From a virus, in IMG/VR virus record IMGVR_UViG_3300046167_000884, positions 1 to 64,000 of that record: a DNA stretch of 64,000 nucleotides; one strand, given 5' to 3'. A program made the translations under genes and the position numbers. This document shows, one piece after another, positions 4,525 to 63,789 of this stretch (position 1 is its first letter; the number at the start of each line of letters is the position of its first letter). The notes beneath the pieces are model-generated. The model did no database searches, was not told where the DNA came from, and saw nothing but the letters and a program-made list of their open reading frames with translations.

Positions 4525-4525
4525 G

Positions 4526-4665: not shown

Positions 4666-4672
4666 CAAGAAA

Positions 4673-5032: not shown

Positions 5033-5049
5033 AAGTAATGCGTGGGAGG

Positions 5050-5082
5050 TTTGGCTACCTGGGATATCATTCGTATATTCAC
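5050..5082 (+). promoter_or_regulatory. Early/middle promoter with quasi-palindromic spacer
   Basis: TTTG at 5050-5053 and TATATTCAC at 5074-5082 are separated by exactly 20 bases. The spacer starts GGCTACCTGGGATATC and ends TTCG, closely related to the spacers at 5473 and 46878. AGTAATGCRYGGGA lies just upstream, shared with the promoter at 5473. Confidence 0.65.
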
Positions 5083-5125
5083 CATGTTGTGATAATGAAG
5101 TTGCAACGCTAATTAAATAAAGGTT

Positions 5126-5455
5126 ATGACAAGTACAGATGTTAAAAATTTCAGAAGTGATTTTCAAAATGCAGTTACAGAATTGCAAAAAAAGTATGGT
5201 GTTAATATTAGCACAGGTACTATCCGTTATTCAGATAGTGAATTAAGATTTAAAGTTACTGCTCGTAAAGGTAAAGTTACCCCTAAATTAACAAAAGAAG
5301 CTTTTCAAGTAGGTGATAAAGTTAAAATTAATCATAAAAGTGCTAAAGGTAAAGAATGGTTAGTAGAAAAAATCATGTCTAAAAACATCAGAGTTTCAGA
5401 AATAGGTGGTATTAGTATGGTTAGAGTTTCACCAAGTTTATTAGAAAAGCTTTAA
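5126..5455 (+). CDS. Small protein with SH3/KOW-like segment, 109 aa
   Basis: The start lies in the AAATAAAGGTTATG context and under an early/middle promoter. The N-terminal half is helical and charged (VKNFRSDFQNAVTELQKKYG). The C-terminal half has a beta-barrel-like pattern, FQVGDKVKINHKSAKGKEW then LVEKIMSKNIRVS, resembling KOW or SH3-like nucleic-acid-binding folds. It is basic. A role in binding nucleic acid or RNA polymerase is possible. No family is assigned. Confidence 0.5.
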   Translation: MTSTDVKNFRSDFQNAVTELQKKYGVNISTGTIRYSDSELRFKVTARKGKVTPKLTKEAFQVGDKVKINHKSAKGKEWLVEKIMSKNIRVSEIGGISMVRVSPSLLEKL

Positions 5456-5472
5456 AAGTAATGCACGGGAAG

Positions 5473-5505
5473 CTTGGCTTCCCAGGCAGCCCTTCGTATA
5501 TTCAC
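5473..5505 (+). promoter_or_regulatory. Early/middle promoter with quasi-palindromic spacer
   Basis: CTTG at 5473-5476 and TATATTCAC at 5497-5505 are 20 bases apart, with the spacer GGCTTCCCAGGCAGCC followed by CTTCG. The whole block, including the upstream AGTAATGC element, is a diverged copy of the one at 5050. Confidence 0.65.
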
Positions 5506-5555
5506 GTGTTCGAATGTTTCGAGCTATTAAAATTAATTAAATTAAAATAAAAGTT

Positions 5556-6359
5556 ATGTTAGATTACACAAGTTCAAATTTCAAAAGTTTAGAAGAGTTA
5601 AAAGAAATCGCTCCTAGTATTTTTACTACAAAGGGTGCAGAAAGTACTTCAGATAAGTACACACACATTCCTACTGATCGAGTTATTACAGATATGGAGT
5701 TACTAGGTTGGAAAGTTGTTGATGCTAAAGAGGTTAAAGCTCGTGAAAATGTTGGTTTCCAAAAGCATTTAGTTGTATTTAGAAATCCTGATGTTGTTAT
5801 TAATGGTGAAGATGGTGATACTGTTTACCCACAAGTATTACTTACCAATTCTCATGATGGTAAAAATTCATTTACCTTTACTGCAGGTTTATTTAGAATG
5901 ATTTGTGAAAATGGATTAGTTGTTGCTGATACTAAGTTTGAAGATTTTAAAGTTAAACATATGGGTTATGATTTTGAAACACTTCAAGATACAATTAAAG
6001 AGATTATTAGTAATCTTGATTTAACTGTTGAATCAATGAATAAAATGAAAGAAACAGAGCTTAATGAAGAGCAAATGTTCAATTTAGCAAAATCATTCCT
6101 TGATATGAGAGTTGAAGGTACAAATAATACTTACAACAAAGATGCAATTACAGAAGTTTTAGATCCTCAACGTTCAGAAGATATGGGGAATGGATTGTGG
6201 GAAGTGTTTAATCGTGTTCAAGAAAACATTATGGAAGGTAATTTTGAATACCTTACAGTTAAAGGAAAACCACGTCAAGCTCGAATTATTAAAAATTTCA
6301 AGCAAGATCAGGACTTGAATAAGAAAATGTTTAGTAAAGCATTAGAATTTGTAGCATAA
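5556..6359 (+). CDS. DUF932-like phage/plasmid protein
   Basis: The 267-residue product resembles DUF932 (phage/plasmid-like) proteins. Visible features are an N-terminal helical part, a central segment (PQVLLTNSHDGKNSFTFTAG, then LFRMICENGLVV) that matches the characteristic N-S-H-D-G...R-x-x-C-x-N-G motif, and a helical C-terminal half. The family is common in large phages and plasmids and its biochemical role is not settled. It has its own early/middle promoter and its stop overlaps the start of the lipoprotein gene. Confidence 0.65.
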   Translation: MLDYTSSNFKSLEELKEIAPSIFTTKGAESTSDKYTHIPTDRVITDMELLGWKVVDAKEVKARENVGFQKHLVVFRNPDVVINGEDGDTVYPQVLLTNSHDGKNSFTFTAGLFRMICENGLVVADTKFEDFKVKHMGYDFETLQDTIKEIISNLDLTVESMNKMKETELNEEQMFNLAKSFLDMRVEGTNNTYNKDAITEVLDPQRSEDMGNGLWEVFNRVQENIMEGNFEYLTVKGKPRQARIIKNFKQDQDLNKKMFSKALEFVA

Positions 6360-6994
6360 TGAAAAATTTAGTTTACATAACCTTAATAAGTTTCTTCTGG
6401 GCATGTAGCCCAGAGGAGCTTGTTAATAATTACCCATGTATTGGGGGAGATTGTAATGTTGAGTTTACAATAGATTCATTAGTATCACCCGGGGTCTACC
6501 AAGATATTAATGGTTATTGGCATATTTCACATCAAGGGTTTAACTATTTTACAATTAAAGGTAATATTAGTGAATTACACCCTGATTATATTGTTAATGG
6601 GGTACCTTTAGTTGAAACTGTTTTTGATTCGGATTATTGGGTATGGATTGATGGGATTACGTTTACAGTTCCTTTGTACAGTGTGTTAGGTTATTTCACT
6701 AGTGGTGATTATACAACTCCTATACCAGTTGGTAATTTAACATATACTATTGAAGATATGGCTAATAATTACCCACCATTAAATGTTGTTGGGTATTCAG
6801 TTAACCCCCACCAATGTTTTGATTGCCCTTATTCTGAAACGTTGATTGGTACTTATAGTAAATATAATTATAACCCCCAACAACAAATATTTTTTGATAA
6901 CCAAATGGTAGGAGATACAACTAAAGTATTTATAAAAACTAAGTTTCCTAATGATATAGAAGTAGAAAAAGAATTTAAAATTATATTCGAATGA
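6359..6994 (+). CDS. Phage-encoded lipoprotein, 211 aa
   Basis: The N-terminus MKNLVYITLISFFWAC is a lipoprotein signal peptide with the lipobox cysteine at 16, followed by SPEE. The mature part contains more cysteines (NNYPCIGGDC, HQCFDCPYS) and many aromatic residues, and looks all-beta. In Bacteroidota, lipoproteins are often carried to the cell surface. A phage lipoprotein expressed early could exclude superinfecting phages, as known for lipoproteins of other phages; that role is inference. The gene is coupled to both neighbours (TAATGA, ATGA). Confidence 0.6.
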   Translation: MKNLVYITLISFFWACSPEELVNNYPCIGGDCNVEFTIDSLVSPGVYQDINGYWHISHQGFNYFTIKGNISELHPDYIVNGVPLVETVFDSDYWVWIDGITFTVPLYSVLGYFTSGDYTTPIPVGNLTYTIEDMANNYPPLNVVGYSVNPHQCFDCPYSETLIGTYSKYNYNPQQQIFFDNQMVGDTTKVFIKTKFPNDIEVEKEFKIIFE

Positions 6995-30739: not shown

Positions 30740-33700
30740 ATGGCCAATAAGTTAGAAAATATTTTTAATCCAAATGTTGATGAAATCTCACAAGGTTTTA
30801 CAATTAATGCTTGGCATGTTTCTCAATCAGTAGACGCTTTTACAGCTGCAGATGCATATGATATATCAATATCAGGTTCATTTAATAATACGGGTTCAGC
30901 ATCATTTTCGGGAAGTGTATTTACTCCAGATTTACCCGATACTTCAACTGATTTTGAAGTAGTTGTTGTTGATAATACAACAAAAGAAGTAAAGAAAACA
31001 AATTTATTAAATGCGGGTTCATCGGGAACAAGTGGTTCATCTGGTACATCAGGTTCAAGTGGCACAAGCGGTTCATCAGGAACTTCAGGTTCTTCAGGCA
31101 CAAGTGGTTCTTCAGGTATTAGTGGTTCTTCAGGTACTTCAGGTGAAGATGGAGATAAATATGTTACAACCTCAACAACCTGTAAAGATTTAGGAGTAGG
31201 TAATACTTGTATTACTGTAGGGGTAGGATTAGCTTATTCTACTGGTCAAGAAATGATAATGGCCAACAGTACTACAGCTTTTCAAACTGCGTTAGTTGAT
31301 AGTTATGACCCAGTTACAGGGATTTTATGTTATGGTGATATTATAACCCAAGTAGGAACTGGAAACTATTGCAATTGGGAAGTAAATCTTGCTGGAACCG
31401 TAGGAGGTTCATCAGGTACATCAGGCTCTTCAGGCACATCCGGTTTAAACGGTTCAAGTGGAACATCAGGCTCAAGTGGAGCAGATGGATCATCGGGCTC
31501 AAGTGGTTCATCAGGTACATCAGGTTCAAGCGGAACATCAGGTTCTAGTGGTGCCTCAGATAAATATGCTACAACATCAAACGACTTGTTTTACATTAGG
31601 AGGCAGTGGTTGTATATTTGTAGACACAGGTTTAGCGTATACAATTGCACAATCTATTATTATAGCATACGATGCTAATAATCATCAAGAATGTGAAGTA
31701 TTATCGTATGATGATGATACAGGAGAACTATGTTTTGGTTCACCTACTTCTACAACAGGTAGTGGTCAATATTGTAGTTGGAGTGTTAATTTAGATGGTG
31801 CAACAGGTGGAGATGGATCATCAGGTACAAGTGGTACATCAGGTACAAGTGGAACTTCAGGAACATCTGGTTCTTCGGGTACATCAGGTTCATCGGGTTC
31901 ATCCGGTTCTTCAGGAGCTAGTGGTTCATCAGGATCATCAGGTACAAGTGGTACTTCTGGTTCTAGTGGTGAAGATGGATCTTCAGGTTCATCCGGTACA
32001 TCAGGTTCTTCAGGTTCAAGTGGCTCATCAGGTACAAGTGGTTCTGCAGGAACCTCGGGTTCAAGTGGTACAAGTGGTACATCTGGTTCATCAGGTACCG
32101 CCGGTTCATCAGGCACATCAGGTTCTTCAGGAACAAGTGGTACTTCAGGTACTTCTGGATCCTCTGGCAATTCAGGAACTAGTGGTTCTTCAGGAACATC
32201 AGGGACATCAGGTTCAAGTGGTACATCAGGTACATCAGGGACATCAGGTTCAAGTGGTTCAAGTGGTACAAGTGGCTCATCAGGTTCATCAGGTACAAGT
32301 GGCTCATCAGGTACAAGTGGGGAAGGTGGATCCTCAGGCTCAAGTGGAACATCAGGTTCAAGTGGTGAATCTGGTACATCCGGCTCTTCAGGCACATCAG
32401 GTTCCTCAGGAACAAGTGGTACTTCAGGTTCTGCAGGAACCTCGGGTTCAAGTGGTACAAGTGGTACATCTGGCTCATCAGGATCAAGTGGTTCATCAGG
32501 TACTTCTGGTACATCGGGTTCAAGCGGAACTTCGGGTACAAGCGGTACATCAGGTACATCTGGTACTTCAGGTTCAAGTGGTTCATCAGGTACAAGTGGT
32601 CATCAGGTACATCAGGTTCAGGTCTCATCAGGTACATGCAGGTTCTTCAGGAACATCAGGTTCTTCAGGAACATGCTGGAACATCAGGAACTTCAGGTTC
32701 ATCAGGTACAAGTGGTACTTCAGGTTCAGTGGAACTTCTGGTTCATCTGGTTCATCAGGTACTTCAGGTCAGCGGTTCAGCTGGAACTTCAGGTACTTCA
32801 GGAACTCAGGTTCATCGGTACAAGCGGAACTTCAGGTACAGGGTACTTCAGGTACATCAGGTTCATCTGGTACATCAGGTTCTTCAGGTACTTCAGGTAC
32901 AAGTGGTACATCAGGAACATCAGGTTCTTCAGGAACTTCAGGTTCATCAGGTATAGACGGTACTTCAGGTTCGTCAGGCACTTCAGGTTCATCAGGTATT
33001 GATGGTACTTCAGGTTCGTCAGGCACTTCAGGTACAAGCGGTTCATCAGGTACATCAGGAACTTCAGGTTCTTCAGGTACGAGTGGATCTTCAGGAACAT
33101 CAGGTACATCAGGAACGTCTGGAACATCAGGTTCTTCAGGTACTTCAGGTTCATCAGGAACTTCTGGTTCATCAGGAACTAGTGGTTCATCAGGAACATC
33201 AGGTTCATCAGGTACTGCAGGAACTTCAGGAACATCAGGTTCTTCAGGTAACGACGGTACATCAGGAACTTCAGGTTCATCAGGTACAAGCGGTTCAGCG
33301 GGTACATCAGGAACAGATGGTACTTCTGGTATAGACGGTACTTCTGGTTCATCTGGTACTTCTGGTTCATCGGGTACAAGTGGCTCTTCAGGAACTTCTG
33401 GTTCTTCAGGAACTTCAGGAACATCTGGTTCATCAGGAACATCAGGTTCATCTGGTACTTCAGGTTCATCAGGTATTGATGGTACTTCAGGTTCGTCAGG
33501 AACTTCAGGTTCATCAGGTACAAGTGGTTCAGCTGGAACTTCAGGAACTTCAGGTTCATCAGGAACTTCAGGTTCATCAGGTTCTGCTGGTACATCAGGA
33601 ACTTCTGGTTCATCAGGTATTGATGGAACTTCTGGTTCATCTGGTACGAGCGGTTCATCAGGAACTTCAGGTTCTGCTGGTACGTCAGGTACAAGCGGAG

Positions 33701-36700
33701 TTTCAGGAACTTCAGGTTCATCAGGTACATCAGGCTCAGCTGGTACTTCAGGAACATCAGGTTCTTCAGGTACAAGCGGTTCATCAGGTAACGATGGAAC
33801 TTCAGGAACATCAGGTTCAGCTGGTACATCAGGAACATCAGGTTCTTCAGGTACAAGCGGATCTTCAGGAACTTCAGGTTCATCAGGAACATCAGGTTCT
33901 TCAGGTACTGCAGGAACGTCAGGAACTTCAGGTTCATCAGGTACATCAGGATCATCTGGTGTAAGCGGAACTTCAGGTTCATCAGGTACGAGCGGTTCAT
34001 CAGGAACATCAGGTTCATCAGGAACTTCAGGTTCTTCAGGTACTGCAGGAACATCAGGAACATCAGGTTCATCTGGTGTAAGTGGAACTTCAGGTTCTTC
34101 AGGAACTTCAGGTTCAGCTGGAACTTCAGGTTCTTCAGGAACTTCAGGTTCGGCTGGAACATCAGGTTCTTCAGGAACATCAGGTGTAAGTGGAACTTCA
34201 GGTTCTTCAGGAACTTCAGGTTCTTCTGGAACTTCAGGTTCATCAGGTGTAAGCGGAACTTCAGGTTCTGCTGGTACGTCAGGAACAAGCGGTTCATCTG
34301 GAACTTCAGGTTCATCAGGTTTCTCTGGTACTTCAGGTTCATCAGGTGTAAGTGGAACTTCAGGTTCAGCTGGTACATCAGGAACATCAGGTTCATCAGG
34401 TACAAGCGGATCTTCAGGTACTTCAGGTTCTTCTGGTACTTCTGGTTCATCAGGAACTTCTGGAACTTCTGGTTCTTCAGGTACTTCTGGTTCATCAGGA
34501 ACTTCAGGTTCATCAGGTGTAAGTGGAACTTCAGGTTCGGCTGGTACATCAGGAACTTCAGGTTCATCGGGTACAAGCGGTTCTTCAGGTAATGATGGAA
34601 CTTCAGGAACTTCTGGTTCTTCAGGAACTTCAGGTTCTGCTGGTACATCTGGTTCATCAGGTATCATCAGGTACATCAGGTACATCTGGTTCATCAGGAC
34701 AAGTCGGTTCATCAGGTACTTCAGGTTCATCAGGTACGATGGTACATCAGGAACTTCTGGTTCATCTGGTACATCAGGTTCATCAGGTAACGATGGAACA
34801 TCAGGATCATCTGGTTCATCAGGTACTTCAGGTTCATCAGGTACATCAGGTTCTAGTGGTACAAGTGGTACTTCAGGGGAACTCAGGAGACACATATGCC
34901 GATTGTAGTACTCAGGAATCTATCTGGTTACCTCTGGCAATGACGGTAGCTTCACGGAACTTAGCTCATCAGGAACTCAGGTTCTTCAGCGTATACTGCT
35001 GCACACTTCCGGTACATCTGGTATCTTCAGGAATGCCTCAGGTTCTTTCGAGTGTACGAGCGGACTCATCAGTAACTCAGGAACATCAGGTGCAATTCAG
35101 GATTACATCAGGTTCTTCAGGTACTTCAGGTTCTTCAGGTGGTTCGCGGAACTTCGTGGATAAATCTAGCTGGTGCTTCAGGAACATCAGGTTCATCTGG
35201 TACTAGCGGTTCAGCAGGTTCTTCAGGCACAAGTCAGGTTCTTCAGGTACAAGTGGCTCATCAGGTACTTCAGGTTCATCAGGTACTTCAGGTCATCAGG
35301 CTCTTCAGGAACATCAGGTTCAAGCGGTACTTCAGGTACTTCAGGTACATCAGGTACATGCGGTTCATCAGGTTTAGGAACATCAGGTTCTATCGGAACA
35401 TCAGGTTCAGTGGTACATCAGGTACATTCAGGTACAGTGGTTCTTCAGGTACTCAGGAACAAGTGGTTCAAGTGGAACATCAGGTTCATCAGGTACGAGC
35501 GGTTCTTCAGGTACTTCTGGTTCATCTGGTCAAGTGGTTCTTCAGGAACATCGGGTTCATCTGGTACTTCAGGTTCATCAGGTACAAGTGGAACAATGGC
35601 TCATCAGGTACTTCAGGTTCTTCAGGTACTTCAGGTTCATCTGGTTCAAGTGGTACATCTGGTTCATCAGGTACAAGTGGTACATCTGGTTCATCCGGTA
35701 CATCAGGTACATCAGGCTCATCAGGTACAAGCGGTTCTTCAGGCACATCAGGTACAAGCGGTTCTTCAGGTACATCAGGTACTAGTGGTTCAAGTGGAGA
35801 AGATGGATCCTCGGGCTCAAGTGGAACATCAGGTTCAAGTGGTACATCTGGTTCATCAGGTACATCAGGTACATCTGGAACTAGTGGTTCATCTGGTAAT
35901 TCAGGTACAAGCGGTTCTTCAGGGACTAGTGGTTCATCTGGTAATTCTGGAACATCCGGTTCATCAGGTACATCAGGTACATCAGGTTCTTCAGGAACTA
36001 GTGGTTCATCAGGCACATCAGGTTCTTCAGGAACTAGTGGTTCTTCAGGAACAAGTGGTAGTTCAGGTGCATCAGGTCCAATAGGTCCTTACGAATATTA
36101 TGCTCCCGGAGACGAAGATTCGGGTATTCAACCTGTAAGTGGTTCAAATACTGCTGCAGGTTGTTGGTCAACTATTGCTGGTGGTCAAAATAATTATGTT
36201 GGTCTTGGGGGTACATTATATCATTTTATAGGAGGTGGTTTTGATAACCAAACAGGAACTTGTGCTGCTGGTCAAGTAATTGTTGGTGGATATTGTAACT
36301 GTTCACAAGGTGGTACTTCTCCTAATAAAGCTGATTGGAACTTTATAGGAGCTGGTATTGAAAACTGTAATCTTGGAGGTGCAGCTGCTATTGTAGCTGG
36401 TAAAAATAATAAAATTTCAGGAGTAGGAATAGGTGGAACTAATACAGGTGCATCTGGTAGTTTTATTGGAGCTGGTGTTGGAAATGAAATTGAAGCAGGA
36501 TGTTGTAGTTTTATAGGAGCTGGTTCTAATAACTTTATAACAAGTAGTCATACTTCAATTGTAGGTGGTACCCTAAACACAGCTTCAGCAGATTGTAGTT
36601 TCATAGGAGGTGGACATAACAACCTAACAAAAATATGCACCTATTCAGATTAGTATGGTGGATTTATTTCCGAAGGAACAGGTTCATCAATTGTGGGTGG

Positions 36701-47308: not shown

Positions 47309-47422
47309 ATGAGCAATTTAGAAAAATTATTATTATTACAAAAAAAGGTATGTGCAATAACAGAACCTGAATTAGCAGAGTATGTGAGTGTGTTAATCAA
47401 AACAGAATATGAATATCAATAA
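47309..47422 (+). CDS. Very small helical protein, 37 aa
   Basis: The start lies in an AAGAGTTATG context six bases after the previous stop. The product is one or two helices (SNLEKLLLLQKKV; PELAEYVSVLIKTEY). It fits the operon spacing between the 116-residue gene and the hydrolase. Function unknown. Confidence 0.4.
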   Translation: MSNLEKLLLLQKKVCAITEPELAEYVSVLIKTEYEYQ

Positions 47423-47432
47423 AATAAAGGTT

Positions 47433-47888
47433 ATGAAAAAAATAGTATATTTACACGGCTTAGAAAGTGAAGCAGGAGGTCCAAAAGTATCTTTCCTTGC
47501 TGAAAAAGGTATGGTTTATGCTCCTGCTATGAATTATGAAAGCTTAAACTTACATGAATTTATCCTTACTTTAGGTATGCCCGATTTAATTATTGGATCT
47601 AGTATGGGTGGTTATGTTGCCGATGTTATAGGTTCAAGATTAGGAGTAGATGTTTTATTATTTAATCCTGCTTTACATAACAGATCAATCCCAGTAAATC
47701 ATGAATATTATGGTGAAACTTATAAACGTACAATTGTTTTAGGTACTGAAGATAATGTTATCAATCCTGAAATAACTAAAAATTTATGGTCTGTTCATGG
47801 TAATGTAGCAATACATGATGAGATAGAGGGTATGGGTCATAGAACGCCACTTGATGTTTTTATTAATATGTATAATAAACATGCTTAA
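47433..47888 (+). CDS. Alpha/beta hydrolase (YqiA-like esterase)
   Basis: I chose the ATG at 47433, in the AAATAAAGGTTATG context, over the in-frame ATG eight codons upstream. The 151-residue product begins KKIVYLHGLESEAGGPK (oxyanion HG motif), has the nucleophile elbow GSSMGG (S57) and candidate acid D107 (LGTEDNVI) and base H136 (GMGHRTP). Length and motif match small esterases of the YqiA/UPF0227 type. It is unusual in a phage; the substrate could be an acyl ester on host envelope or a thioester, but this is not shown. Confidence 0.65.
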   Translation: MKKIVYLHGLESEAGGPKVSFLAEKGMVYAPAMNYESLNLHEFILTLGMPDLIIGSSMGGYVADVIGSRLGVDVLLFNPALHNRSIPVNHEYYGETYKRTIVLGTEDNVINPEITKNLWSVHGNVAIHDEIEGMGHRTPLDVFINMYNKHA

Positions 47889-47890: not shown

Positions 47891-48436
47891 ATGATTAAAT
47901 TAATAGATCTATTAAATGAGATAGATATCCCTAAGAACAAATGGGTTACTATTCCTGCCTCAGAACTAAAAGACTATAGTGAAGAAATTTATAAGTTAAT
48001 TGATAATGCTTATGCACCAATTGGCGGTCATCCTAACTATAAATCCGCGGGTAATGTATCAGGTAGTGAATCTGATGCAGAATATGAAATAATTGATTTA
48101 GACGATGACCCTGAAATTGATGCAGTATCCGCTTCTAAACTTAAAGCCGCAGGTAAAAAATTTACAGCAACAGGACATGATGGGTCTAAACCAGCTAAAT
48201 CCAGTGTTGTAAATCATAAGGCAAATCAATTAAAATCTGGAGGATATTATGTTGAAGTATCAGGTGTAATAAAAGATATTTTTAAAGCTAAAGGTGTAGA
48301 AGCTATTAACGATGAAGAACTAGTACGTAAAGTACTTAAAGGAAAAGAAATTGAGTGGCTAGGTAATGGCGAATATAAAAGAACAATTGGTGGTAAATTA
48401 TTTACCAAAGCATTAATGGGAAAACCAACAGTATGA
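47891..48436 (+). CDS. Putative GNAT-like acetyltransferase with L-x-E leader, 181 aa
   Basis: The body (WVTIPASELKDYSEEIYKLI, later EIIDLDDDPEIDAVSASKLK, ATGHDGSKPAKS, GGYYVEVSGVIKDIFKAKG) resembles T4-like phage proteins usually annotated as N-acetyltransferase-like; the canonical acetyl-CoA loop is not obvious. The N-terminus MIKLIDLLNE|IDIP has a short hydrophobic leader ending in L-x-E, like the cleaved leaders of T4 internal head proteins. It overlaps the next gene by four bases. If the leader is cut, the body starts at residue 11. The function is inferred weakly. Confidence 0.45.
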   Translation: MIKLIDLLNEIDIPKNKWVTIPASELKDYSEEIYKLIDNAYAPIGGHPNYKSAGNVSGSESDAEYEIIDLDDDPEIDAVSASKLKAAGKKFTATGHDGSKPAKSSVVNHKANQLKSGGYYVEVSGVIKDIFKAKGVEAINDEELVRKVLKGKEIEWLGNGEYKRTIGGKLFTKALMGKPTV

Positions 48437-49230
48437 TAAGTTTAGTACAATTATTAAGAGAAGCACAAGGTAACCCAAAAGCGGTTATCTTAGCAGGAGC
48501 ACCTGGAGCAGGTAAAGGATATATTTTACGTGGTTTAGACTTAGGAGGTCTAAAAACAATGAATGTAGATGATATCTATGTTCCTTTACTAAAAAAAGCT
48601 AACGTTAGTTTAGATTTAAAAAACGCTACACCTGAAGAAAGAAGTGAGCAAGCCAAACAAATGGCCGCAGCTAATAAACAATTTAAAGGTGAATTAGAAC
48701 AAGTAATAGCAGGTAAAGAATCATTTATATTAGATGGTACAGCAGCTTCATTTAAAAAAACAGCAGAATTAAAATCAGAACTAGAAGAAGCAGGATATGA
48801 TACATTTATGCTTTATGTCTATACAGATTTAGAACGTTCGTTAAGTCAAAACCAAGATAGATACGTAAAATCAGGAGGTGAAGATAGAAGTTTAGCACCT
48901 GCAATTGTAATGCGTACTTGGAAAAGTGTAACAGATAATTTACCTAAATATGAAGAATTATTTGGTAATAATTTTGTAGCAGTAGCTAATACATTAGATG
49001 ATAGAATGCAAGATATAGATAAAATTATACAAAAATATCTTAAACCATTTACACCTCAAGGTACTAAACCTAAAACCCCAGCTCAGCAAAAGAAATCTGA
49101 TGAACGAAAGGCTAAGGACAAAGAAGAAATTCAAGCTATGTTAGATGATGATTTTATATATGATGTAATTGAATATACTATGTCTAAGGAAGAGGCACAA
49201 ATGAGATTAAAACAATTCTTATCTAAATGA
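48433..49230 (+). CDS. P-loop kinase-like protein with L-x-E leader, 265 aa
   Basis: The N-terminus MISLVQLLRE|AQGN ends in a possible prohead-protease site. It is followed directly by a Walker A motif GAPGAGKG at residues 22-29 and a kinase-like body (KTMNVDDIYVPLLKKANVSL, SFILDGTAASFKKTAELKSE, MLYVYTDLERSLSQNQDRY). The layout is that of zeta-toxin-like or polynucleotide-kinase-like P-loop enzymes. The end is a basic, Gln/Lys-rich linker and an acidic helix. It sits between the putative acetyltransferase and the four-domain protein, all coupled by ATGA. Confidence 0.55.
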   Translation: MISLVQLLREAQGNPKAVILAGAPGAGKGYILRGLDLGGLKTMNVDDIYVPLLKKANVSLDLKNATPEERSEQAKQMAAANKQFKGELEQVIAGKESFILDGTAASFKKTAELKSELEEAGYDTFMLYVYTDLERSLSQNQDRYVKSGGEDRSLAPAIVMRTWKSVTDNLPKYEELFGNNFVAVANTLDDRMQDIDKIIQKYLKPFTPQGTKPKTPAQQKKSDERKAKDKEEIQAMLDDDFIYDVIEYTMSKEEAQMRLKQFLSK

Positions 49231-50909
49231 GTTTAGTAAACGAATTAATTAAAGGGTTATTACCTGAAGAAGAAAAAAAGAAGGTAGTGGCAGTATATGG
49301 TGGTGGTTTTAAACCACCCACATCTGGTCACTTTGAAGTTGTAAAACAAGCACTTAAAGAAAACCCCGAAATAGATGAATTTATTATCTTAATAGGTGGT
49401 AAACCAAGAAATGGTATTACACCTGATGAATCTATTTTAATTTGGGATATCTATAAAACATACTTACCATTTAAAGTTGAAGTAAAATACACATCAGTAC
49501 CTCCTATAAAAGGTATTTATAATTATGCCAAAGAACACCCAGATGAAGAAGTATTATTCATTATAGGTGCTAGAGAAGGTAATGAAGAAGATTTTAAAGA
49601 TATAGCATCTAGAACAACAACATTGGATAAATATCCAAATTTAAATTTACGTACCATTGTAACACAAGGTGGTGTTTCAGGTACAGCTGCTAGAAATGCT
49701 TCTAAAATATCATTAGATAAATTTAAACCCTTTGTTCCATCTGAATTATCAGATGAAGAAATAGAGCAAGTATATAATATAGTAGCAGATAAAATACAAG
49801 AAAATAACCCAGAGGATGGCAAGGCTGCTCCTTATGGTTCCGGATATAAAAAACTAAAAGAAAACGCATCATATTCTCAAAATATAGATGTAATGGAAAA
49901 AATAGCTCAATTAACCAATCATATGATTGATAAGGGTATGAATATTGAACCATTACCTACTATGGAATTTATAGACGGTGATTCAGAAAATGCTAAAGAC
50001 TTTTTTGGTAAAACAGCATATTACGATCCAAACAGAAAACATATAGTATTATACACTGAAGGTAGACACCCTAAAGATATAGTACGTTCGTATGCACATG
50101 AAATGATCCACCATATCCAAAATCTAGAGGGTAGATTAGGTGATATTTCAACTACAAATACACAAGAAGACGATAAACTAAATGATATTGAAGCGGAAGC
50201 TAACCTAAAAGGCACAATGACATTTAGAAATTGGACGGATAGTTTAAATGAAGCAATCGTAGGTGAAAAAATCGAATGTGATAATTGTGGTTGGAGCTGG
50301 AATATAGTAGACGGTGGAGATGATTTATTTATATGTCACAAATGTGGGCACGATAATACACCAATAAATGAAAAGAAAACTAAAGACCCGTTTGGTATAA
50401 ATGCATATGCAATGGAATTAGGAAGGTTACGTGAAGAAGAAACAGAATATAAAATATACTGCGATATGGATGGCGTAATAGCAGATTTTGAACGTGGTTA
50501 TGAAGAATTAACAGGTATAGATTTACAAGGTGAATTTAAACCTGAAGGAAAAGAGTTTTGGGATCCTATCTCTAAAGCAGGAGTTGGATTTTGGGCTGGT
50601 TTAAAATGGATGCCTGATGGGCAACAATTATGGGATTATATTAAACCCCATAAACCAAAATTATTATCTGCACCTTCACGTGAACAAACTTCTAGAATAG
50701 GAAAACACGTTTGGGTTAAACATAAAATACCTGGTACAAAATTAATATTAAGGTATGCTGATAAAAAGAAAGAATTAGCTTCACCAACATCAATATTAAT
50801 AGATGATAGAATGGTAAATATAAAAGACTGGGAATCCGCAGGAGGGATTGGTATATTACATACTAGTGCTGCTAATACTATTAGCCAATTAGAAAAATTA
50901 GGTTTATGA
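49227..50909 (+). CDS. Four-domain protein: nucleotidyltransferase, metallopeptidase, zinc ribbon, HAD nucleotidase
   Basis: Order of parts in 560 residues: leader MSLVNELIKGLLPE; a cytidylyltransferase/NMNAT-like Rossmann domain (VAVYGGGFKPPTSGHFEVVK, residues 21-40, with T-S-G-H; GGVSGTAARNA at 148-158); a metallopeptidase-like segment with HEMIHH at 291-296 and E323 nearby; a site DSLNE|A at 338-343; a zinc ribbon C351/C354/C370/C373; and an HAD domain with D413-M-D415-G (YCDMDGVIADFERG) and ILIDDRMVNIKDW (523-535), close to 5'(3')-deoxyribonucleotidases. L-x-E sites fall between domains, so it may be cut into separate enzymes. The joint role is unknown; nucleotide or NAD metabolism is plausible for the end domains. 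Confidence 0.6.
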   Translation: MSLVNELIKGLLPEEEKKKVVAVYGGGFKPPTSGHFEVVKQALKENPEIDEFIILIGGKPRNGITPDESILIWDIYKTYLPFKVEVKYTSVPPIKGIYNYAKEHPDEEVLFIIGAREGNEEDFKDIASRTTTLDKYPNLNLRTIVTQGGVSGTAARNASKISLDKFKPFVPSELSDEEIEQVYNIVADKIQENNPEDGKAAPYGSGYKKLKENASYSQNIDVMEKIAQLTNHMIDKGMNIEPLPTMEFIDGDSENAKDFFGKTAYYDPNRKHIVLYTEGRHPKDIVRSYAHEMIHHIQNLEGRLGDISTTNTQEDDKLNDIEAEANLKGTMTFRNWTDSLNEAIVGEKIECDNCGWSWNIVDGGDDLFICHKCGHDNTPINEKKTKDPFGINAYAMELGRLREEETEYKIYCDMDGVIADFERGYEELTGIDLQGEFKPEGKEFWDPISKAGVGFWAGLKWMPDGQQLWDYIKPHKPKLLSAPSREQTSRIGKHVWVKHKIPGTKLILRYADKKKELASPTSILIDDRMVNIKDWESAGGIGILHTSAANTISQLEKLGL

Positions 50910-51514: not shown

Positions 51515-52615
51515 ATGAAAGATAATTTTGACCTTTATTCTTGGAATAAAAATCGTTATTTAGAAAAAGAACATAAATCTAAGGATACTAAAGAAAAAGA
51601 TTTTGATTTACGTGAATGGAATAAGAAAAGATATTTAGGTGAACTAGATATTAATACTGCAGGAGGTGAAACTAATGTAGATAATATAGATGTAACCCAT
51701 GGTGGAGATGATCCTAAAATTGGTGCAGAATTAGAATCAGATGCCAATGTAGTAGGAGAAAATAAAGATTATTTAGAAAGCCTTGCCTTAAACCTCACAC
51801 AAGCACACCCAGATTTAGAATTTGAAGTTAGTAACTTTGATGATGTAAGAGTTTATGGTTCTCAAAGTGATTTAATGAAGTTTGGAAATAAAATGCATGG
51901 TAAAAAATTTGGAGAATATGAAGTATTTCATGTAGAAGATGATGATAGAGGAGAAATTGTTCGAATAGTTAAATCAGATAGCATTTTAAGAAATTTTGAA
52001 AATTTAAATGAAGCAAGTTATATGTACAAAGGATATAAAGATAAACACTTTGATATTTGCCCAGGAGCTGAAGCATTAAGAGATAGATTATTAGCTGGTG
52101 AATTTAAAGATAATAATTGGGCTACAGGAACTAATTTTGAAAAAGAAGTAGGTGAATGGCTTTACCAACATGACGTAATATTTGGTATTGAAAAAAATAT
52201 TATAAAAGATAAAGAAGGTGATGAAAATGATATAGCTAAAGCTAAAGAAGCTGAAGGTAGAGTTGTTAACTTATCTCGTGATTTAGGTATTCCGGCTTCT
52301 GAAATAAATGCTTATCTTCCTGCTCATATTAAAACCATTAAAGATATGGTTGAGTATAGTTCATTAACTGAAAGCATTAAAGAAACACTTCGTTTTATTA
52401 AAGAACACAATCCAGATTTTACTAACGAAGAAATTAAATCTGAATTAAAAGAACTTAAAGAATTAGGCAAGCAATTAAACGAAAAACTTTGTAAAAAAGG
52501 CGAAGCATATCGTAAACGTAGAATGGCTGCAGGTGAAAAATCATCAGCTTATTTATCTGGTCGTGCTGTTAAAGTATGTAAAGGTCAAATGAGTGGTAAA
52601 AAAAAGAAAAAATAA
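51515..52615 (+). CDS. Putative head-internal protein with doubled leader, 366 aa
   Basis: The N-terminus has two copies of an F-D-L-x-x-W-N-K-x-R-Y-L motif (NFDLYSWNKNRYL at 4, DFDLREWNKKRYLGE at 29). An L-N-E site follows at 164-166 (ENLNEASYMYKG). The middle is acidic and the end is basic: CKKGEAYRKRRMAAGEKSSA then YLSGRAVKVCKGQMSGKKKK, a C-terminal type I know from T4-like aquatic phages (DUF5872-like), suited to DNA binding. It is late-expressed. I infer a packaged protein processed by the head protease; the actual activity is unknown. Confidence 0.5.
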   Translation: MKDNFDLYSWNKNRYLEKEHKSKDTKEKDFDLREWNKKRYLGELDINTAGGETNVDNIDVTHGGDDPKIGAELESDANVVGENKDYLESLALNLTQAHPDLEFEVSNFDDVRVYGSQSDLMKFGNKMHGKKFGEYEVFHVEDDDRGEIVRIVKSDSILRNFENLNEASYMYKGYKDKHFDICPGAEALRDRLLAGEFKDNNWATGTNFEKEVGEWLYQHDVIFGIEKNIIKDKEGDENDIAKAKEAEGRVVNLSRDLGIPASEINAYLPAHIKTIKDMVEYSSLTESIKETLRFIKEHNPDFTNEEIKSELKELKELGKQLNEKLCKKGEAYRKRRMAAGEKSSAYLSGRAVKVCKGQMSGKKKKK

Positions 52616-54369: not shown

Positions 54370-55308
54370 ATGGACAACTTTAATTATCAAGCTTATATCA
54401 AAAGTGGTAGAATCCACGGAGAAAAAGCGATTTTAACCGAATCAGAACAAGTTTCTGAAAAAAAATACAAGCAAGGATATGACGATAGAGAAGATGAATC
54501 TCTAGGCGATCGTACTGGTGCTGAAAAAGGCAAGAAACAATCTATGAAAGACCGTAGAGATGATTCTTATGGAAAATTTGGCAAACGTGATGCTGAAAAA
54601 AAGGGCAAAAATAAAGTCAACAAAGAAAGCCTATCAGAAACTATTGCTGAAGCTAAAGCTAAAATTGACGAGGGTTCTTACCCATTTGATCAATGCTTGG
54701 CTGATAATGAAGGTAAATATGGTAAAAAAGGTGCTGCCAAAGTATGTGGTGCTATTAAAGCCCAATACGGTGAAGGTCAAGTAAATGAAATGGATGAAGT
54801 TTCATGGAATGATAAAAACAACCCAACCAGAAGTGATTCAGTAGGCGAAAGAGATCCTAAAAAAGTAGGCCAATCTACAGCAGCATACTCAGTAAATGAA
54901 GACGCTCGTACTGATGCTGAACAAGAAGGATATAAAGATGGATTTGAAGATGCTAAAGATGATATTGAAGGAGTATTAAAGAAAATGAAAGTATCTGAAC
55001 TTAAAGATAAAATTAAAACTGAAATTGTAAGTGCACTATCAGAAGCTGAAGAAGAAGTAGACGTTGATGTAGATGTTGAAGACGAAGTTGAAGTAGAAGC
55101 AGGTGCTGATGATATTGAAATCGAAAGACCAGGAGTTAAAACAACAGTAGATGTTGGACTATCTCCAGAAGAGGAAATTGTTCAAGATTCTTTAAAAGCT
55201 GCAATGGATGCTGCAGAAGCTTTAGGTAGTCAAAAATTAGCAGATCAAATTGGTAATACAATTACTTTCTTTACAAGACAATTTGTAGTAGGTGATAATA
55301 CTGATTAA
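54370..55308 (+). CDS. Putative prohead core/scaffold protein, 312 aa
   Basis: The leader MDNFNYQAYIKSGRIHGEKA, then ILTE|SEQ, is related to the MDNFDLKKYLAEG leader. The body is highly charged and repetitive: a Lys/Asp-rich first third, a YPFDQCLADNEGKYGKKGAA segment with two cysteines, and an acidic stretch (VDVDVDVEDEVEVEAGADD). The end is helical. Acidic, charged, protease-site-bearing proteins of this kind form the T4 prohead core (gp22, gp67, gp68). It is followed four bases later by a larger protein of similar type. A role as scaffold is likely but not proved. Confidence 0.5.
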   Translation: MDNFNYQAYIKSGRIHGEKAILTESEQVSEKKYKQGYDDREDESLGDRTGAEKGKKQSMKDRRDDSYGKFGKRDAEKKGKNKVNKESLSETIAEAKAKIDEGSYPFDQCLADNEGKYGKKGAAKVCGAIKAQYGEGQVNEMDEVSWNDKNNPTRSDSVGERDPKKVGQSTAAYSVNEDARTDAEQEGYKDGFEDAKDDIEGVLKKMKVSELKDKIKTEIVSALSEAEEEVDVDVDVEDEVEVEAGADDIEIERPGVKTTVDVGLSPEEEIVQDSLKAAMDAAEALGSQKLADQIGNTITFFTRQFVVGDNTD

Positions 55309-58424: not shown

Positions 58425-59735
58425 ATGAGTATATTCGATAAATTTTTTACAAAATTCGCTTACAAATTCGACAAAGGATATCCTGACATGAATAATGATC
58501 AGGATGTTTTGTTGTTGGAGTCACTTATTAGTGAAGTATTAGGTGAAAGATATAGTTTAGAAGAAGCTAATATGGTTGGATCCGCTACAAATTATCCTTC
58601 TGTTACTGGGACTTGGGAAAAATATATTGAAAACCCACTATCTAAACATGAAGACGGAAAAACAACTTATACTGCAATAAAAACATCTCCAGTATGGATT
58701 AAAACTCCATCAAATAATATTGAAAAAACAGATGTAATAGTAAATGTAAATGATACGTTTACTATTAGTTCTAGGTCTACTGATGATTTAATAAAAAAAG
58801 GAAGTTCTTATTATGCTCCTATTAATTATAAAGGAAAGGAATACTATTTCCCCTTTAATGCTATACTAAAACCTACAGGCAAAAATGTCCAAAAATTTGA
58901 ACCTAATTTAGATTCTAAAAATGACCCATCAGTTTATCATGCCTTCACCCCAGGCCATCCACAAGAAGCAAATATTGCAATGTTATTTATTGAAAAAACA
59001 TCTCCTGATTGGGAATTTGAATATAAAGGAAAATCATTAAAAGTAATATATTTAGGTGATCCTAATGTTAAAAGTACTGGTTATCCTAAAAATGATTTAC
59101 AAATTAATACTGAACCTGCCCCTGAAGGTTTAGATTCTTCAATGAGGATTAGTTTAAAAGCAGATAATGCTACTTACGTAGAGAATTGGATGACTTCTAC
59201 TAGAGCAGAACAGATATTAGGTGATACCAAAGTAAAAGAAATTGTTTTAGGAGCATATAATGCTTTATTAAAATCAACACCACCTAGATCTGGTAAAGGT
59301 TTATTTAAAGGAACCCTTAAATCATATCAAATTTGTATGTTTATTAAAGACAAACAACCACCGTATGGATCAGAAGCACCTTCAATACTATCAGAACCCC
59401 TATCTAAAGATGAGGCATATGAAGCTTATACAGGGGATAAAAAGTTTGGGGATACTGATGGGTCAGCTAATTATTTTTATAAAGGAGGAAAACCAAAAAC
59501 AACAACAGAATTTCTGGGAGATTTAAAACCATTCAAAGATAATATGGATAATTTATCAGATTTATGGGTTTCTTTAAGGGGATCTAATGAATCAGGTAAA
59601 GGAAGAAGTAGAGTATTTTATTGGGAAGGAAAAGATGATGATCCAAATGGAAAATGGATTATAAATCCATTATGGGCAGAAATAGCTGGGATAACCAAAT
59701 CAGAAGATAAAGAAGGTAATATAAAATATAGTTAA
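58425..59735 (+). CDS. Putative head-internal protein, 436 aa, second leader type
   Basis: The first 45 residues (SIFDKFFTKFAYKFDKGYPD, then LLLESLISE|VLGE) differ from the MDNF leader but also end in L/I-x-E; I recall similar starts in related phages. An alternative ATG lies at residue 22. The body is beta-rich (TYTAIKTSPVWIKTPSNNIE; YYAPINYKGKEYYFPFNAIL) and ends in a GKGRSRVFYWEGKDDDPNGK segment. No catalytic motif is seen. Its neighbours and leader suggest a packaged protein; the function is unknown. Confidence 0.45.
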   Translation: MSIFDKFFTKFAYKFDKGYPDMNNDQDVLLLESLISEVLGERYSLEEANMVGSATNYPSVTGTWEKYIENPLSKHEDGKTTYTAIKTSPVWIKTPSNNIEKTDVIVNVNDTFTISSRSTDDLIKKGSSYYAPINYKGKEYYFPFNAILKPTGKNVQKFEPNLDSKNDPSVYHAFTPGHPQEANIAMLFIEKTSPDWEFEYKGKSLKVIYLGDPNVKSTGYPKNDLQINTEPAPEGLDSSMRISLKADNATYVENWMTSTRAEQILGDTKVKEIVLGAYNALLKSTPPRSGKGLFKGTLKSYQICMFIKDKQPPYGSEAPSILSEPLSKDEAYEAYTGDKKFGDTDGSANYFYKGGKPKTTTEFLGDLKPFKDNMDNLSDLWVSLRGSNESGKGRSRVFYWEGKDDDPNGKWIINPLWAEIAGITKSEDKEGNIKYS

Positions 59736-59753: not shown

Positions 59754-60938
59754 ATGTGTAACTGCGGATGTAATACTTGCGAAACTAAAACAAAAGGACC
59801 TTTACTTACTGAAAGTAAAGTTAAATCTTTATTATCCGAAGGTCTACAATATCACATAGATAAAAAAATACCATTATTTGAAACAGTATATCGTATTGGT
59901 TCAGATAAACATCTAGCCTTAATTAAAGAAGCTAGAAAAATGTATTCACGTAACATAATTGATTTATGTGAAGATGATGAAGCACTAATTAAAACACATT
60001 TAGGTGAATTTGCTTTATATGAAGGTGAATCTGTACCATTAGATTTACCTATGTTAAATGAATCAGATTCTAACTATCCAGATTTTGATTTAAATAAAAA
60101 CATAAGATACAAAGATACATCTATTTCAAGCGGAATGTGGAGATATACAGGTCAAGAACAAGGTGGAAAAGGCGTTTATAGAAATTTAAATAATGATCAA
60201 ATATTAGCTTTTGATAGAAGTGATTTTGATATATTTAAAAACAATCTTGGTAGTCATTTTGATATTTCAGAATCATTAAATGAATTTTCATTACCTAAAT
60301 TTGATGTAGTAAAACCTATTATTGATAAATTTTTAGGTGGGATAGAAAAAGCTGGTAAAAAACTATTACAAATAGTTAAACGAGAAGGTAAACAGACTTT
60401 AGTATTAATTAAAGAAATAGCCGAATACGTAGTAAGTGGAGAAAAACCAACATCATCTGAACAGAAAAAAATTACAGAACAATTAAAGGATTTAGGTTTT
60501 TTAGCTTTTTTAGGAATAGCAGGTAATATTCCTTTTTCATTATTTTCTATAATTTATTTTATAATAGATGAATCAGGCATAGCTAAAGAATTTTTAAAAT
60601 TAAATGAGTCATTAAATGAAGATGAACAATTAGACGAAAAGAAAAAGGCTAAGAAAAAAGAAAAAAAAGACCCACCATTAAATAAACCAAAACGTGGTGG
60701 TTCTAAAGCATATTATGTTTATGTACGTGATCCTAAAACTAAAAAAATTAAAAAAGTATCATTTGGATCCGGTGGTTTAAGAGCTAAAATTAAAAACAAA
60801 GAAGCTCGTACTGCATTTGCCGCTAGACATAATTGTAAAAATAAAAAAGATAGAACTAAAGCAGGATATTGGTCATGTAATTTACCAAGATACGCTCCAG
60901 CATTAGGATTAGGTGCTAAAATGAATACTTTTTGGTAG
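59754..60938 (+). CDS. Putative head-internal protein, 394 aa, with basic C-terminal domain
   Basis: The N-terminus is Cys-rich (MCNCGCNTCETKTKGP) and followed by two L-x-E sites (LLTE|S, LLSE|G). The next part (QYHIDKKIPLFETVYRIGSD, IKTHLGEFALYEGESVPLDL) and the basic end (KRGGSKAYYVYVRDPKTKKI, ARHNCKNKKDRTKAGYWSCN) match a protein type that I know from T4-like aquatic phages. A hydrophobic helix lies between (LGFLAFLGIAGNIPFSLFSI). The basic end could bind DNA and the hydrophobic helix could contact a membrane on ejection. It is late-expressed. Confidence 0.5.
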   Translation: MCNCGCNTCETKTKGPLLTESKVKSLLSEGLQYHIDKKIPLFETVYRIGSDKHLALIKEARKMYSRNIIDLCEDDEALIKTHLGEFALYEGESVPLDLPMLNESDSNYPDFDLNKNIRYKDTSISSGMWRYTGQEQGGKGVYRNLNNDQILAFDRSDFDIFKNNLGSHFDISESLNEFSLPKFDVVKPIIDKFLGGIEKAGKKLLQIVKREGKQTLVLIKEIAEYVVSGEKPTSSEQKKITEQLKDLGFLAFLGIAGNIPFSLFSIIYFIIDESGIAKEFLKLNESLNEDEQLDEKKKAKKKEKKDPPLNKPKRGGSKAYYVYVRDPKTKKIKKVSFGSGGLRAKIKNKEARTAFAARHNCKNKKDRTKAGYWSCNLPRYAPALGLGAKMNTFW

Positions 60939-61720: not shown

Positions 61721-61968
61721 TGAACCCATACAAAAATAAAGGTAACATAAGAACGTTTTCGAAAGATGTAAATAAACTAGAACTAGTTTGGCATCAAGAC
61801 GCTGAAGATAGAGATATCGAAGTATTAGAAGGCAAAGGATGGGAATTACAAATGGATAATGAATTACCCTTTGAATTAGTAAAGGGAGATCGTATATTTA
61901 TAACAGAAGGTAGAATACACCGAATATTAAAAGGCATAACAGATTTAAAAATAAAAATAAATGGATAA
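61720..61968 (+). CDS. Small cupin-like protein, 82 aa
   Basis: I place the start at 61720 (TAATGA overlap with the previous stop). An in-frame ATG upstream would extend it into the previous gene. The product is a short beta-barrel-like sequence (KLELVWHQDAEDRDIEVLEG; GWELQMDNELPFELVKGDRI; EGRIHRILKGI) with H and E residues in cupin-like positions. Similar small proteins, from memory, occur in T4-like aquatic phages. No enzyme activity can be assigned. It overlaps the first MDNF-leader gene by eight bases. Confidence 0.5.
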   Translation: MNPYKNKGNIRTFSKDVNKLELVWHQDAEDRDIEVLEGKGWELQMDNELPFELVKGDRIFITEGRIHRILKGITDLKIKING

Positions 61969-62254
61969 CTTTAATTTAAGAAAATATTTAGCTGAAGGAA
62001 AATTACATGAAGAACAAGTAATGGGATATGCTGTACTTATAAATGGTAAATTCTATAATAATAAAGTATACAAATCAGAATCAGTAGCTAATGGACAGTT
62101 AACTACATTACTAGGTGATGTAAAAAGTGAATTAGGTCTTGAAGGTGGAAGAAAAGATCAATATTATTTTGGTACTAAAAAAGGAGATAAAGATTTAGAA
62201 CAACGTTTAAAAGATTTAGAACAAGCTAAAGTAGTAGCTGTAACCTATAAATAA
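61961..62254 (+). CDS. Leader-cassette protein 1, 97 aa
   Basis: The leader is MDNFNLRKYLAEGKLHEEQV, the first of five near-identical leaders in a row. The remaining 75 residues are a small alpha/beta domain (GYAVLINGKFYNNKVYKSES; LGLEGGRKDQYYFGTKKGDK) with no known family. L-A-E|G at residues 10-13 matches the T4 head-protease consensus, so the mature protein may begin at G13. It starts within the end of the cupin-like gene and is followed six bases later by the next cassette. Confidence 0.5.
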   Translation: MDNFNLRKYLAEGKLHEEQVMGYAVLINGKFYNNKVYKSESVANGQLTTLLGDVKSELGLEGGRKDQYYFGTKKGDKDLEQRLKDLEQAKVVAVTYK

Positions 62255-62260
62255 AAATAA

Positions 62261-62902
62261 ATGGATAACTTCGATTTAAAAAAATATTTAGCTGAAGGTC
62301 GCTTATTTAAAGAAGAAATAGACTACCCATCTATTAAAGATGAAATGAAAAAAATATATGATATAGATGTAGATCTAGATACCATTAAAGATTTTGTTAC
62401 ATCATATAATGATAGTGAGGGTATGGATGTATTTGATACAACGGAACGAGAAGATTTTTATTTATATTTAAAAGATTTAGCTGAAGGCCTCTTATTTGAA
62501 GAAGAACAATGGTTTGATCCCTCTAGCCCTTCACACGGTAAAGGATATAAAGTATTAGGCGATAAACCACAAGAAGGTGCTTTTTATGTAAGTGGATATG
62601 ATTTTGATAATGATAAAAGCTTTGAATATTATGTACTTGATCCTAATTATAATAAATACCTTACTGCTACCCAAGAATTATTAGGTCTTGCTGATGAACA
62701 GGGACACGAGTATGAAAGTATAGAACAGTATTATGATACAGTTAAAGCTTTTCAAAATGATTTAAGATCTTATGCTAAAGGAGGTAAGTTCGAAGGTGAT
62801 GAGGTACCTAATTGGCTTATGCAAGATCTTGCTATGAGTTTTGGAACTGATTATGACCAATTTTATAGTGATGATGAAGACGAAGACGAAGACGATTATT
62901 AA
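62261..62902 (+). CDS. Leader-cassette protein 2, 213 aa, with internal second leader
   Basis: The leader is MDNFDLKKYLAEGRLFKEE. After a 60-residue helical spacer ending FDTTEREDFYLYLK, a second leader-like motif DLAEGLLFEEEQ appears at about 72-83. The following domain (GAFYVSGYDFDNDKSFEYYV, LDEN-type acidic turns) ends in an extremely acidic tail (DEDEDEDDY-like). The spacer and second leader are related to those in the next gene, which points to duplication of a leader-spacer-leader unit. Cargo function unknown. Confidence 0.5.
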   Translation: MDNFDLKKYLAEGRLFKEEIDYPSIKDEMKKIYDIDVDLDTIKDFVTSYNDSEGMDVFDTTEREDFYLYLKDLAEGLLFEEEQWFDPSSPSHGKGYKVLGDKPQEGAFYVSGYDFDNDKSFEYYVLDPNYNKYLTATQELLGLADEQGHEYESIEQYYDTVKAFQNDLRSYAKGGKFEGDEVPNWLMQDLAMSFGTDYDQFYSDDEDEDEDDY

Positions 62903-62920
62903 AAATAAAATTAAAATAAA

Positions 62921-63472
62921 ATGGATAATTTCGATTTAAAAAAATATTTAGCTGAAGGAAGACTATTTGAAGAAGATTTTAAAAATCCAATTCTAGATAA
63001 ATATTTAGAACTAAAAAAATCAGTAGATAACAATACAGCTTTTGAGTATGAACTATCAGATTTTATTAATGGTTTAGATAATACTGAACGTGAGGGATTA
63101 GAAAGCGATTTAGGATTAGAAAGAGATGAGTTATATGAAGGTCGCTTATTAAAAGAAGAGATAATGGTTGACACCACTATTATGTTTGGTGGTAATGACT
63201 ATATTAAAGATGTACTTACATCACCTGATGATTTTGGCTTTGATGAAGAAGATGCTGAATGGATTAAAAGTAATATTTTAACTGCTCCTAAAATGGTATC
63301 TATTGAAGATTACATGGCTTTAGAGGATAAGTGGGTAGAACAAGCAGATTTAGATGTTGGAACAGGAGCAGATCGTGAGTCTGTTCTAGATGCTATTGAT
63401 GTTCATATTAAACAAGGATTAATAACTCCTGAAGAAGGAGAAGAAGCTAAAAAAATAGCACTAAAATTTTAA
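62921..63472 (+). CDS. Leader-cassette protein 3, 183 aa, with internal second leader
   Basis: The leader is MDNFDLKKYLAEGRLFEED. A helical spacer with FINGLDNTEREGLESDLGLE leads to a second leader-like ELYEGRLLKEEIM at about 71-83, as in the previous gene (NTERE matches TTERE). The cargo (TTIMFGGNDYIKDVLTSPDD, then FGFDEEDAEWIKSNILTAPK) is a helical, acidic domain unrelated to that of the previous gene. The end has a DAIDVHIKQGLITPEEGEEA helix. No known family. Confidence 0.5.
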   Translation: MDNFDLKKYLAEGRLFEEDFKNPILDKYLELKKSVDNNTAFEYELSDFINGLDNTEREGLESDLGLERDELYEGRLLKEEIMVDTTIMFGGNDYIKDVLTSPDDFGFDEEDAEWIKSNILTAPKMVSIEDYMALEDKWVEQADLDVGTGADRESVLDAIDVHIKQGLITPEEGEEAKKIALKF

Positions 63473-63477
63473 AATAA

Positions 63478-63789
63478 ATGGATAACTTTGATCTAAAAAA
63501 ATATTTAGCTGAAGGTAAATTATATGAACAAAAATCTCCTAAATTTAAAATAGGTGATTTTGTTCAACCTAAAAGCCGAGATAAATATGTAGGCCAAATT
63601 GAAGATGTTTATATTAATAAACCTGAAAATTTAGAAATAAAAGATGGTGAATATGTTTATTCAGTTGATAAATTAAATCACAGAGGAAAAGATGCAATGT
63701 CATTTGATTTTAAAGAATCAGATTTAGAATCAATATCTGACCCAACTGAATATATAAAAAGTTTAACACCATATAAAAGAAGAAACTAA
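63478..63789 (+). CDS. Leader-cassette protein 4, 103 aa
   Basis: The leader is MDNFDLKKYLAEGKLYEQK. The cargo is a small beta-barrel-like domain (FKIGDFVQPKSRDKYVGQIE, DVYINKPENL, YVYSVDKLNH) that resembles SH3/KOW-type folds such as those seen at 5126 and at the end of the 876-residue protein. It is basic near the end (YKRRN). It starts five bases after the previous stop and the next cassette begins one base after its stop. Confidence 0.5.
   Translation: MDNFDLKKYLAEGKLYEQKSPKFKIGDFVQPKSRDKYVGQIEDVYINKPENLEIKDGEYVYSVDKLNHRGKDAMSFDFKESDLESISDPTEYIKSLTPYKRRN

Follow-up and report, generated by a model that had tools for sequence, protein, structure and literature searches.

Does a single viral gene really encode several enzymes in one chain, and if so, how are they joined and how might they reach the host? 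These questions are raised by an open reading frame of 560 codons (49227-50909, + strand, ATG start, a single frame) in the window, the 64,000-nucleotide stretch of viral DNA that we analyzed, which is part of an IMG/VR record of 120,008 bases. The reading frame overlaps each flanking gene by 4 bases. Also encoded in this record are a gp21-type head maturation protease (75338-75946 of the record; PHROG E 1e-57), a T4-type major head protein (77318-78949 of the record; PHROG E 2e-67), a portal (PHROG E 1e-59) and a terminase (PHROG E 3e-51); as for T4-type internal head proteins, one virus thus has both a prohead protease of the gp21 type and head genes of the T4 type. The source is a T4-like virus, probably of marine flavobacteria, the host being assigned solely because the closest isolate is Flavobacterium phage immuto. 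Elsewhere in the window, a long collagen-like repeat region rich in Gly, Ser and Thr (31700-36700) has overlapping long ORFs on both strands, and a tail-fibre frame there is possibly interrupted.

The original prediction had placed four domains in this 560-residue chain. Structure prediction, fold and profile searches and conserved motifs, applied domain by domain, recovered all of them: a nucleotidyltransferase (NTase), a zincin, a Cys4 zinc ribbon and a HAD-type nucleotidase. For module 1, the best Foldseek matches in the PDB were nicotinic acid mononucleotide (NaMN) adenylyltransferase (E 3e-6) and phosphopantetheine adenylyltransferase (target TM 0.80), and the T-x-G-H and G-x-SGTxxR motifs are conserved; an adenylyltransferase fold with nucleotide-binding motifs is thus present. 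By fold NadD and CoaD are equally close, the NCBIfam NadD, NadR and CoaD models all score far below their curated cut-offs, and homology to phage cytidyltransferase families is remote (PHROG 395 and 3041, E about 1e-3). Remote relatives of this module also occur in the 540-kb Lak megaphages of Prevotella (e.g. MK250019.1, 540007-540348). Outside the window, at 83785-84965 of G000, lie a small APS-type-kinase-like gene and a second HIGH-superfamily-like nucleotidyltransferase (GRWQPWHAGH), apparently split over two overlapping ORFs.

In module 2, the alignment of relatives shows an invariant HExxHH and a downstream E-x-E-A, and its AF2 model (pLDDT 88.5) matches IrrE/SprT-like zincins. The four cysteines of module 3 are invariant in 30 copies. 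Module 4 matches PHROG 2643, 5'-3' deoxyribonucleotidase (E 4e-23), and, by profile, human mitochondrial 5' nucleotidase (E 7e-6); its DxDxV and DD motifs are invariant, and Pfam NT5C gives 16.5 bits against a cut-off of 24.8. Catalytic and metal-binding residues are invariant or nearly so among relatives. Between the domains lie two short units. The spacer is a recurrent unit of 20-21 residues in relatives. The second, containing KDPFG, was considered as an internal capsid targeting sequence and is the top-scoring stretch in many relatives, yet its scores fall within the range of shuffled sequences, and we therefore treat this role as a weak suggestion.

Table 1. Coordinates of the 560-residue protein, its parts and neighboring genes in the window. 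A slash marks a candidate cut.
Feature	Position	Strand	Basis or remark
Upstream gene, leader MIKLIDLLNE/I of the same type as the kinase leader	47891..48436	+	N-terminus read
Zeta-toxin-like P-loop kinase, leader MISLVQLLRE/A	48433..49230	+	Upstream of the proposed polyprotein; leader swapped at LxE in some relatives
ORF of the proposed polyprotein	49227..50909	+	560 aa; reading frame and relatives
N-terminal leader MSLVNELIKGLLPE/, putatively capsid-targeting-like	49227..49268	+	Residues 1-14; [LIVM]xE upstream of NTase in relatives
Module 1, NadD/CoaD-like adenylyltransferase fold, ends IQE/	49269..49802	+	Residues 15-192; fold and motifs
Spacer NNPEDGKAAPYGSGYKKLKE/, disordered	49803..49862	+	Residues 193-212; pLDDT < 50 at 189-217
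Module 2, zincin metallopeptidase (HEMIHH ... EAEA), ends DSLNE/	49863..50252	+	Residues 213-342
Module 3, Cys4 zinc ribbon AIVGEKIECDNCGWSW...CHKCGHDNTPINE/	50253..50372	+	Residues 343-382; invariant Cys
Mini-unit KKTKDPFGINAYAMELGRLRE/, possible internal targeting peptide (weak)	50373..50435	+	Residues 383-403
Module 4, putative HAD 5'(3')-deoxyribonucleotidase (NT5C-like)	50436..50906	+	Residues 404-560; PHROG and profile matches
LxE-modular gene	51515..52615	+	64 breakpoints on [LIVM]xE
LxE-modular gene	54370..55308	+	27 breakpoints on [LIVM]xE
LxE-modular gene, largest, 876 aa	55312..57942	+	247 breakpoints on [LIVM]xE
LxE-modular gene	58425..59735	+	13 breakpoints on [LIVM]xE
LxE-rich gene	59754..60938	+	17 [LI]xE in 394 aa; 3 breakpoints
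Four consecutive genes starting MDNF[DN]L[KR]KYLAEG[RK]L	61961..63789	+	Fifth starts at 63791 and passes the window end (61961-64372)

The original prediction had allowed that the parts might always be separate genes in homologues, with an assembly fusion in this record, and had asked for the same domain order in related phages. By our scan of IMG/VR, the whole protein has 265 relatives and the peptidase module, which is present in nearly all relatives, has 307. After removal of duplicates, 67 distinct complete relatives, from many IMG/VR contigs and samples, hold the NTase, the peptidase and the HAD domain in one chain, and in some viruses the HAD domain is a separate gene. The fusion, which had been called unfamiliar, is therefore genuine; what did not hold is that it is an odd single case, as the relatives instead display a shuffled series of modules.

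Among isolates the parts are arranged differently. A tblastn search of 50,697 phage records with the peptidase module returned only immuto, in which the NTase, a peptidase of the same family (58% identity) and the HAD domain lie in adjacent genes (gp88/gp87, NC_055915). Compared with the window protein, immuto gp88 has additional sequence at its N-terminus and contains a second zincin, and the HAD domain is the next gene, gp87, with its own LxE leader. We found no report of immuto virion proteomics in the open-access literature. Pelagibacter phage HTVC008M keeps the order with individual genes for a kinase, a cytidyltransferase and a similar HAD protein, all three beginning with a short leader that ends in L/V-x-E. 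Separate HAD genes often have their own leader ending in such a glutamate (immuto gp87, L073, Melnitz and HTVC008M), and those of L012, L035 and L036 have little or none.

What, then, marks the borders between modules? In T4, gp21 cuts after L/I-x-E, and the internal head proteins owe their targeting to 10 residues at the N-terminus that end in a gp21 site (PMC9026906). In the window protein, the predicted SLNE/A site (residues 340-343, the cut falling between bases 50252 and 50253) does lie exactly at the border of peptidase and zinc ribbon. It is not the single site that had been described: we found six junction sites, after residues 14, 192, 212, 342, 382 and 403, all of the form [LI]-x-E. 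Residues 1-14 thus end as the leaders of T4-type internal head proteins do. The number of sites is uninformative and was dropped as evidence, because the protein contains 8 [LI]xE motifs and shuffled sequences contain 8.3; the case rests on position. Six of the eight fall where AlphaFold2 gives pLDDT < 50, which is 19% of the chain (binomial P about 0.001); [LI]xE also occurs within the folded NTase, at residues 45 and 51.

The positions are kept in relatives. In 58 non-redundant relatives, we scored the stretch adjoining each core domain for [LIVM]xE, the counts not being independent, since relatives share ancestry. The motif was found upstream of the NTase in 44/46 relatives with an N-terminal extension (12.7 expected), whereas 11/57 start directly at the NTase and have no leader. 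It was found downstream of the NTase in 57/57 (11.1 expected), upstream of the peptidase in 58/58 (12.9 expected) and downstream of it in 46/57 (12.6 expected), on both sides of the zinc ribbon in 37/37 (7.4 expected), and upstream of the HAD domain in 43/47 (8.9 expected). After the junction glutamate, N is the commonest residue, followed by G, K, E and A; classical T4 sites have Ala.

Module lengths stay fixed while neighbors change, the peptidase spanning 130 residues in most relatives and the zinc ribbon 40; in L014 and L060 the zinc ribbon occupies other places in the chain. Through the insertion or relocation of whole units, relatives vary in length between about 505 and about 1,500 residues. 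The polyprotein of L036 (ORF 3071-6829) includes an Fe/Mn superoxide dismutase (E 4.5e-29, residues 488-684) and a plastocyanin (E 7e-14, residues 826-910). Other inserts are a GIY-YIG nuclease in L030 (E 3e-20), an ADP-ribosyltransferase-like ART-PolyVal domain in L014 (E 1e-4), a polymerase-beta palm in L153 (E 1e-5), ParB-like domains (E 1e-3) and a second zincin.

We then asked where these exchanges begin and end, taking as breakpoints the starts and stops of pairwise alignments among 101 proteins (90 non-redundant) and counting each local context once. Breakpoints fell on LxE 264 times against 21.2 expected (12.5x), on IxE 90 times against 15.8 (5.7x) and on VxE 80 times against 11.9 (6.7x). 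Decoy motifs were not enriched ([LI]xD 0.41x, [LI]xK 0.91x, [FWY]xE 0.45x, [AGST]xE 0.56x), and [LI]xN and [LI]xQ were below expectation. Judged from these alignments, the specificity is the known L/I-x-E of T4 gp21, with V apparently accepted as well. All other ORFs of the same loci, taken as a negative control, were also enriched (8.8x); the control failed because the genes starting at 51515, 54370, 55312, 58425 and 59754 behave like the polyprotein. Tail-region genes of the same loci had 699 breakpoints with 0 on LxE, but these proteins hold few LxE motifs.

These five further genes lie in the same cluster and have LxE breakpoints of their own; therefore the polyprotein is one example of a more general arrangement, and the five are likely to be further polyproteins or head core proteins. 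The cluster (47.8-65 kb) is rich in short leaders that end in LxE: 15/22 of its genes have one, against 23/103 elsewhere (P 6e-5). The leader of the adjacent kinase is nearly always kept as 10 residues among about 70 distinct kinase N-termini. In a few kinase relatives it is replaced by an unrelated leader of about 18 residues (e.g. MDNFNLKKYLTEGSLLKE/A), joined at the same LxE, an exchange that resembles T4 capsid targeting sequences. The N-terminus common to the run of genes at the end of the window is carried by unrelated small genes, one of them also at 64458-64979 of G000, and is probably a second type of head-targeting leader. A gene for a YqiA/UPF0227-like esterase (47409-47888) adjoins the cluster.

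From these sequence comparisons, we propose that the protein is a modular polyprotein of enzymes that is packaged in the head and cut by the virus's own gp21-type prohead protease, which we consider the probable explanation. One chain would be translated, and its N-terminal leader, of the T4 capsid-targeting type, would carry it into the prohead. There the gp21-type protease, the likely cutter, would cleave after [L/I/V]-x-E at the six junctions, freeing the adenylyltransferase, the zincin peptidase, the zinc ribbon and the putative 5'(3')-deoxyribonucleotidase as separate proteins that would enter the host together with the DNA. The cut sites would double as module borders, with cargo gained, lost and reordered exactly there. 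A processable multi-enzyme precursor, as originally predicted, is supported by comparative evidence; its packaging, along with targeting, cleavage, release and injection, is what we infer. The leaderless relatives are not explained by this head-targeting model. In a broader form, the prohead protease site would be a standard joint, and genes 49227, 51515, 54370, 55312, 58425 and 59754 would carry an interchangeable series of enzyme cargo; a single leader would then import many proteins in a fixed ratio, and new cargo would arrive by recombination at the joints. Such a scheme would amount to a polyprotein strategy of DNA phages built on head maturation. We see the odds on this broader form as even.

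The embedded zincin, rather than gp21, might instead free the modules, before packaging or after injection, making this a self-cutting polyvalent protein. Zincins are the commonest domain of polyvalent proteins and have been proposed as their processors (Iyer et al. 2017), and the peptidase here has an invariant active site in addition to its near-universal presence in relatives. However, the junctions are of the aliphatic-x-E form cut by gp21, a motif in which the leaders of neighboring genes lacking a zincin also end. We regard self-cutting as unlikely. It is also conceivable, though we think it quite unlikely, that gp21 cuts the protein as a component of the head core or scaffold, with pieces that aid assembly and are lost or left behind and no injected effectors. 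In T4, gp21 cleaves the core proteins gp22, gp67 and gp68 into fragments (PMC9026906), and the cluster holds other LxE-modular genes, but most of the modules are complete enzymes whose catalytic residues are conserved, and superoxide dismutase and plastocyanin are among the inserts.

The remaining alternatives dispense with cleavage. If the protein were an uncut multidomain enzyme, LxE would simply belong to flexible linkers where domains happen to be joined by recombination; the linkers are indeed disordered, and cleavage of the polyprotein is itself inferred. Yet decoys of comparable composition show no enrichment at breakpoints, and in tail-region genes, with their few LxE motifs, none of the breakpoints fell on LxE, leaving this reading very unlikely. 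An assembly chimera, or chance, has a negligible probability and is refuted by the 67 distinct complete fusions, which come from many samples.

What the released enzymes would do is more tentative. A role in NAD metabolism or in counter-defence is at most plausible, and it is speculative that the enzymes adjust NAD or nucleotide pools early in infection; PADLOC gave no defence-related match on the polyproteins. The arrangement suggests how a single gene could be used to load a phage head with several proteins. If the gp21-cut polyprotein model is correct, it links injected polyvalent proteins with T4 prohead proteolysis. It would also provide a reading rule: once a sequence is split at LxE, every piece becomes a candidate for injection. 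Hundreds of unannotated marine phage ORFs could then be read as predicted proteins of host takeover or counter-defence, with superoxide dismutase and plastocyanin cargo among them.

Several known systems share parts of this arrangement. Polyvalent proteins of phages and conjugative elements likewise combine many unrelated enzyme domains per chain with strong domain shuffling; in the window protein, too, a single chain from a mobile element joins at least two effector or enzyme domains that are unrelated. Across relatives, domains of the described repertoire recur (zincin, ADP-ribosyltransferase in L014, polymerase-beta NTase and ParB-like), of which the window protein has only the zincin. For polyvalent proteins, processing by the embedded zincin has been proposed (Iyer et al. 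2017, PMC5512222), whereas module borders here coincide with gp21-type sites; in the portion of that paper available to us, we found no account of module borders at prohead protease sites, nor did we find an earlier description of such a coincidence in the open-access literature. Ejection proteins of SPN3US and phiKZ-type giant phages are also carried in the head and cleaved after Glu by a relative of gp21, but the proteases have diverged and the cleavages mainly remove propeptides, and in the literature consulted we found no comparable cassette of separate enzymes.

T4-like cyanophages offer a parallel for one module. Virions of S-CREM2 were found to contain a cytidylyltransferase, and NMNAT-like proteins have been reported from those of three other cyanomyoviruses (PMC10665884). 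These belong to the same nucleotidyltransferase superfamily as module 1, yet are encoded by a separate gene, and they support packaging of module 1 by analogy only. The T4 internal head proteins IPI-III and Alt, which together with polyvalent proteins are the closest kinds known, share the short leader ending in L/I-x-E, a virus that also encodes gp21, portal and capsid proteins, and cargo that varies between relatives. The T4 internal proteins are single cargo cut by gp21, whereas here several enzymes with internal sites would be packaged as one chain.
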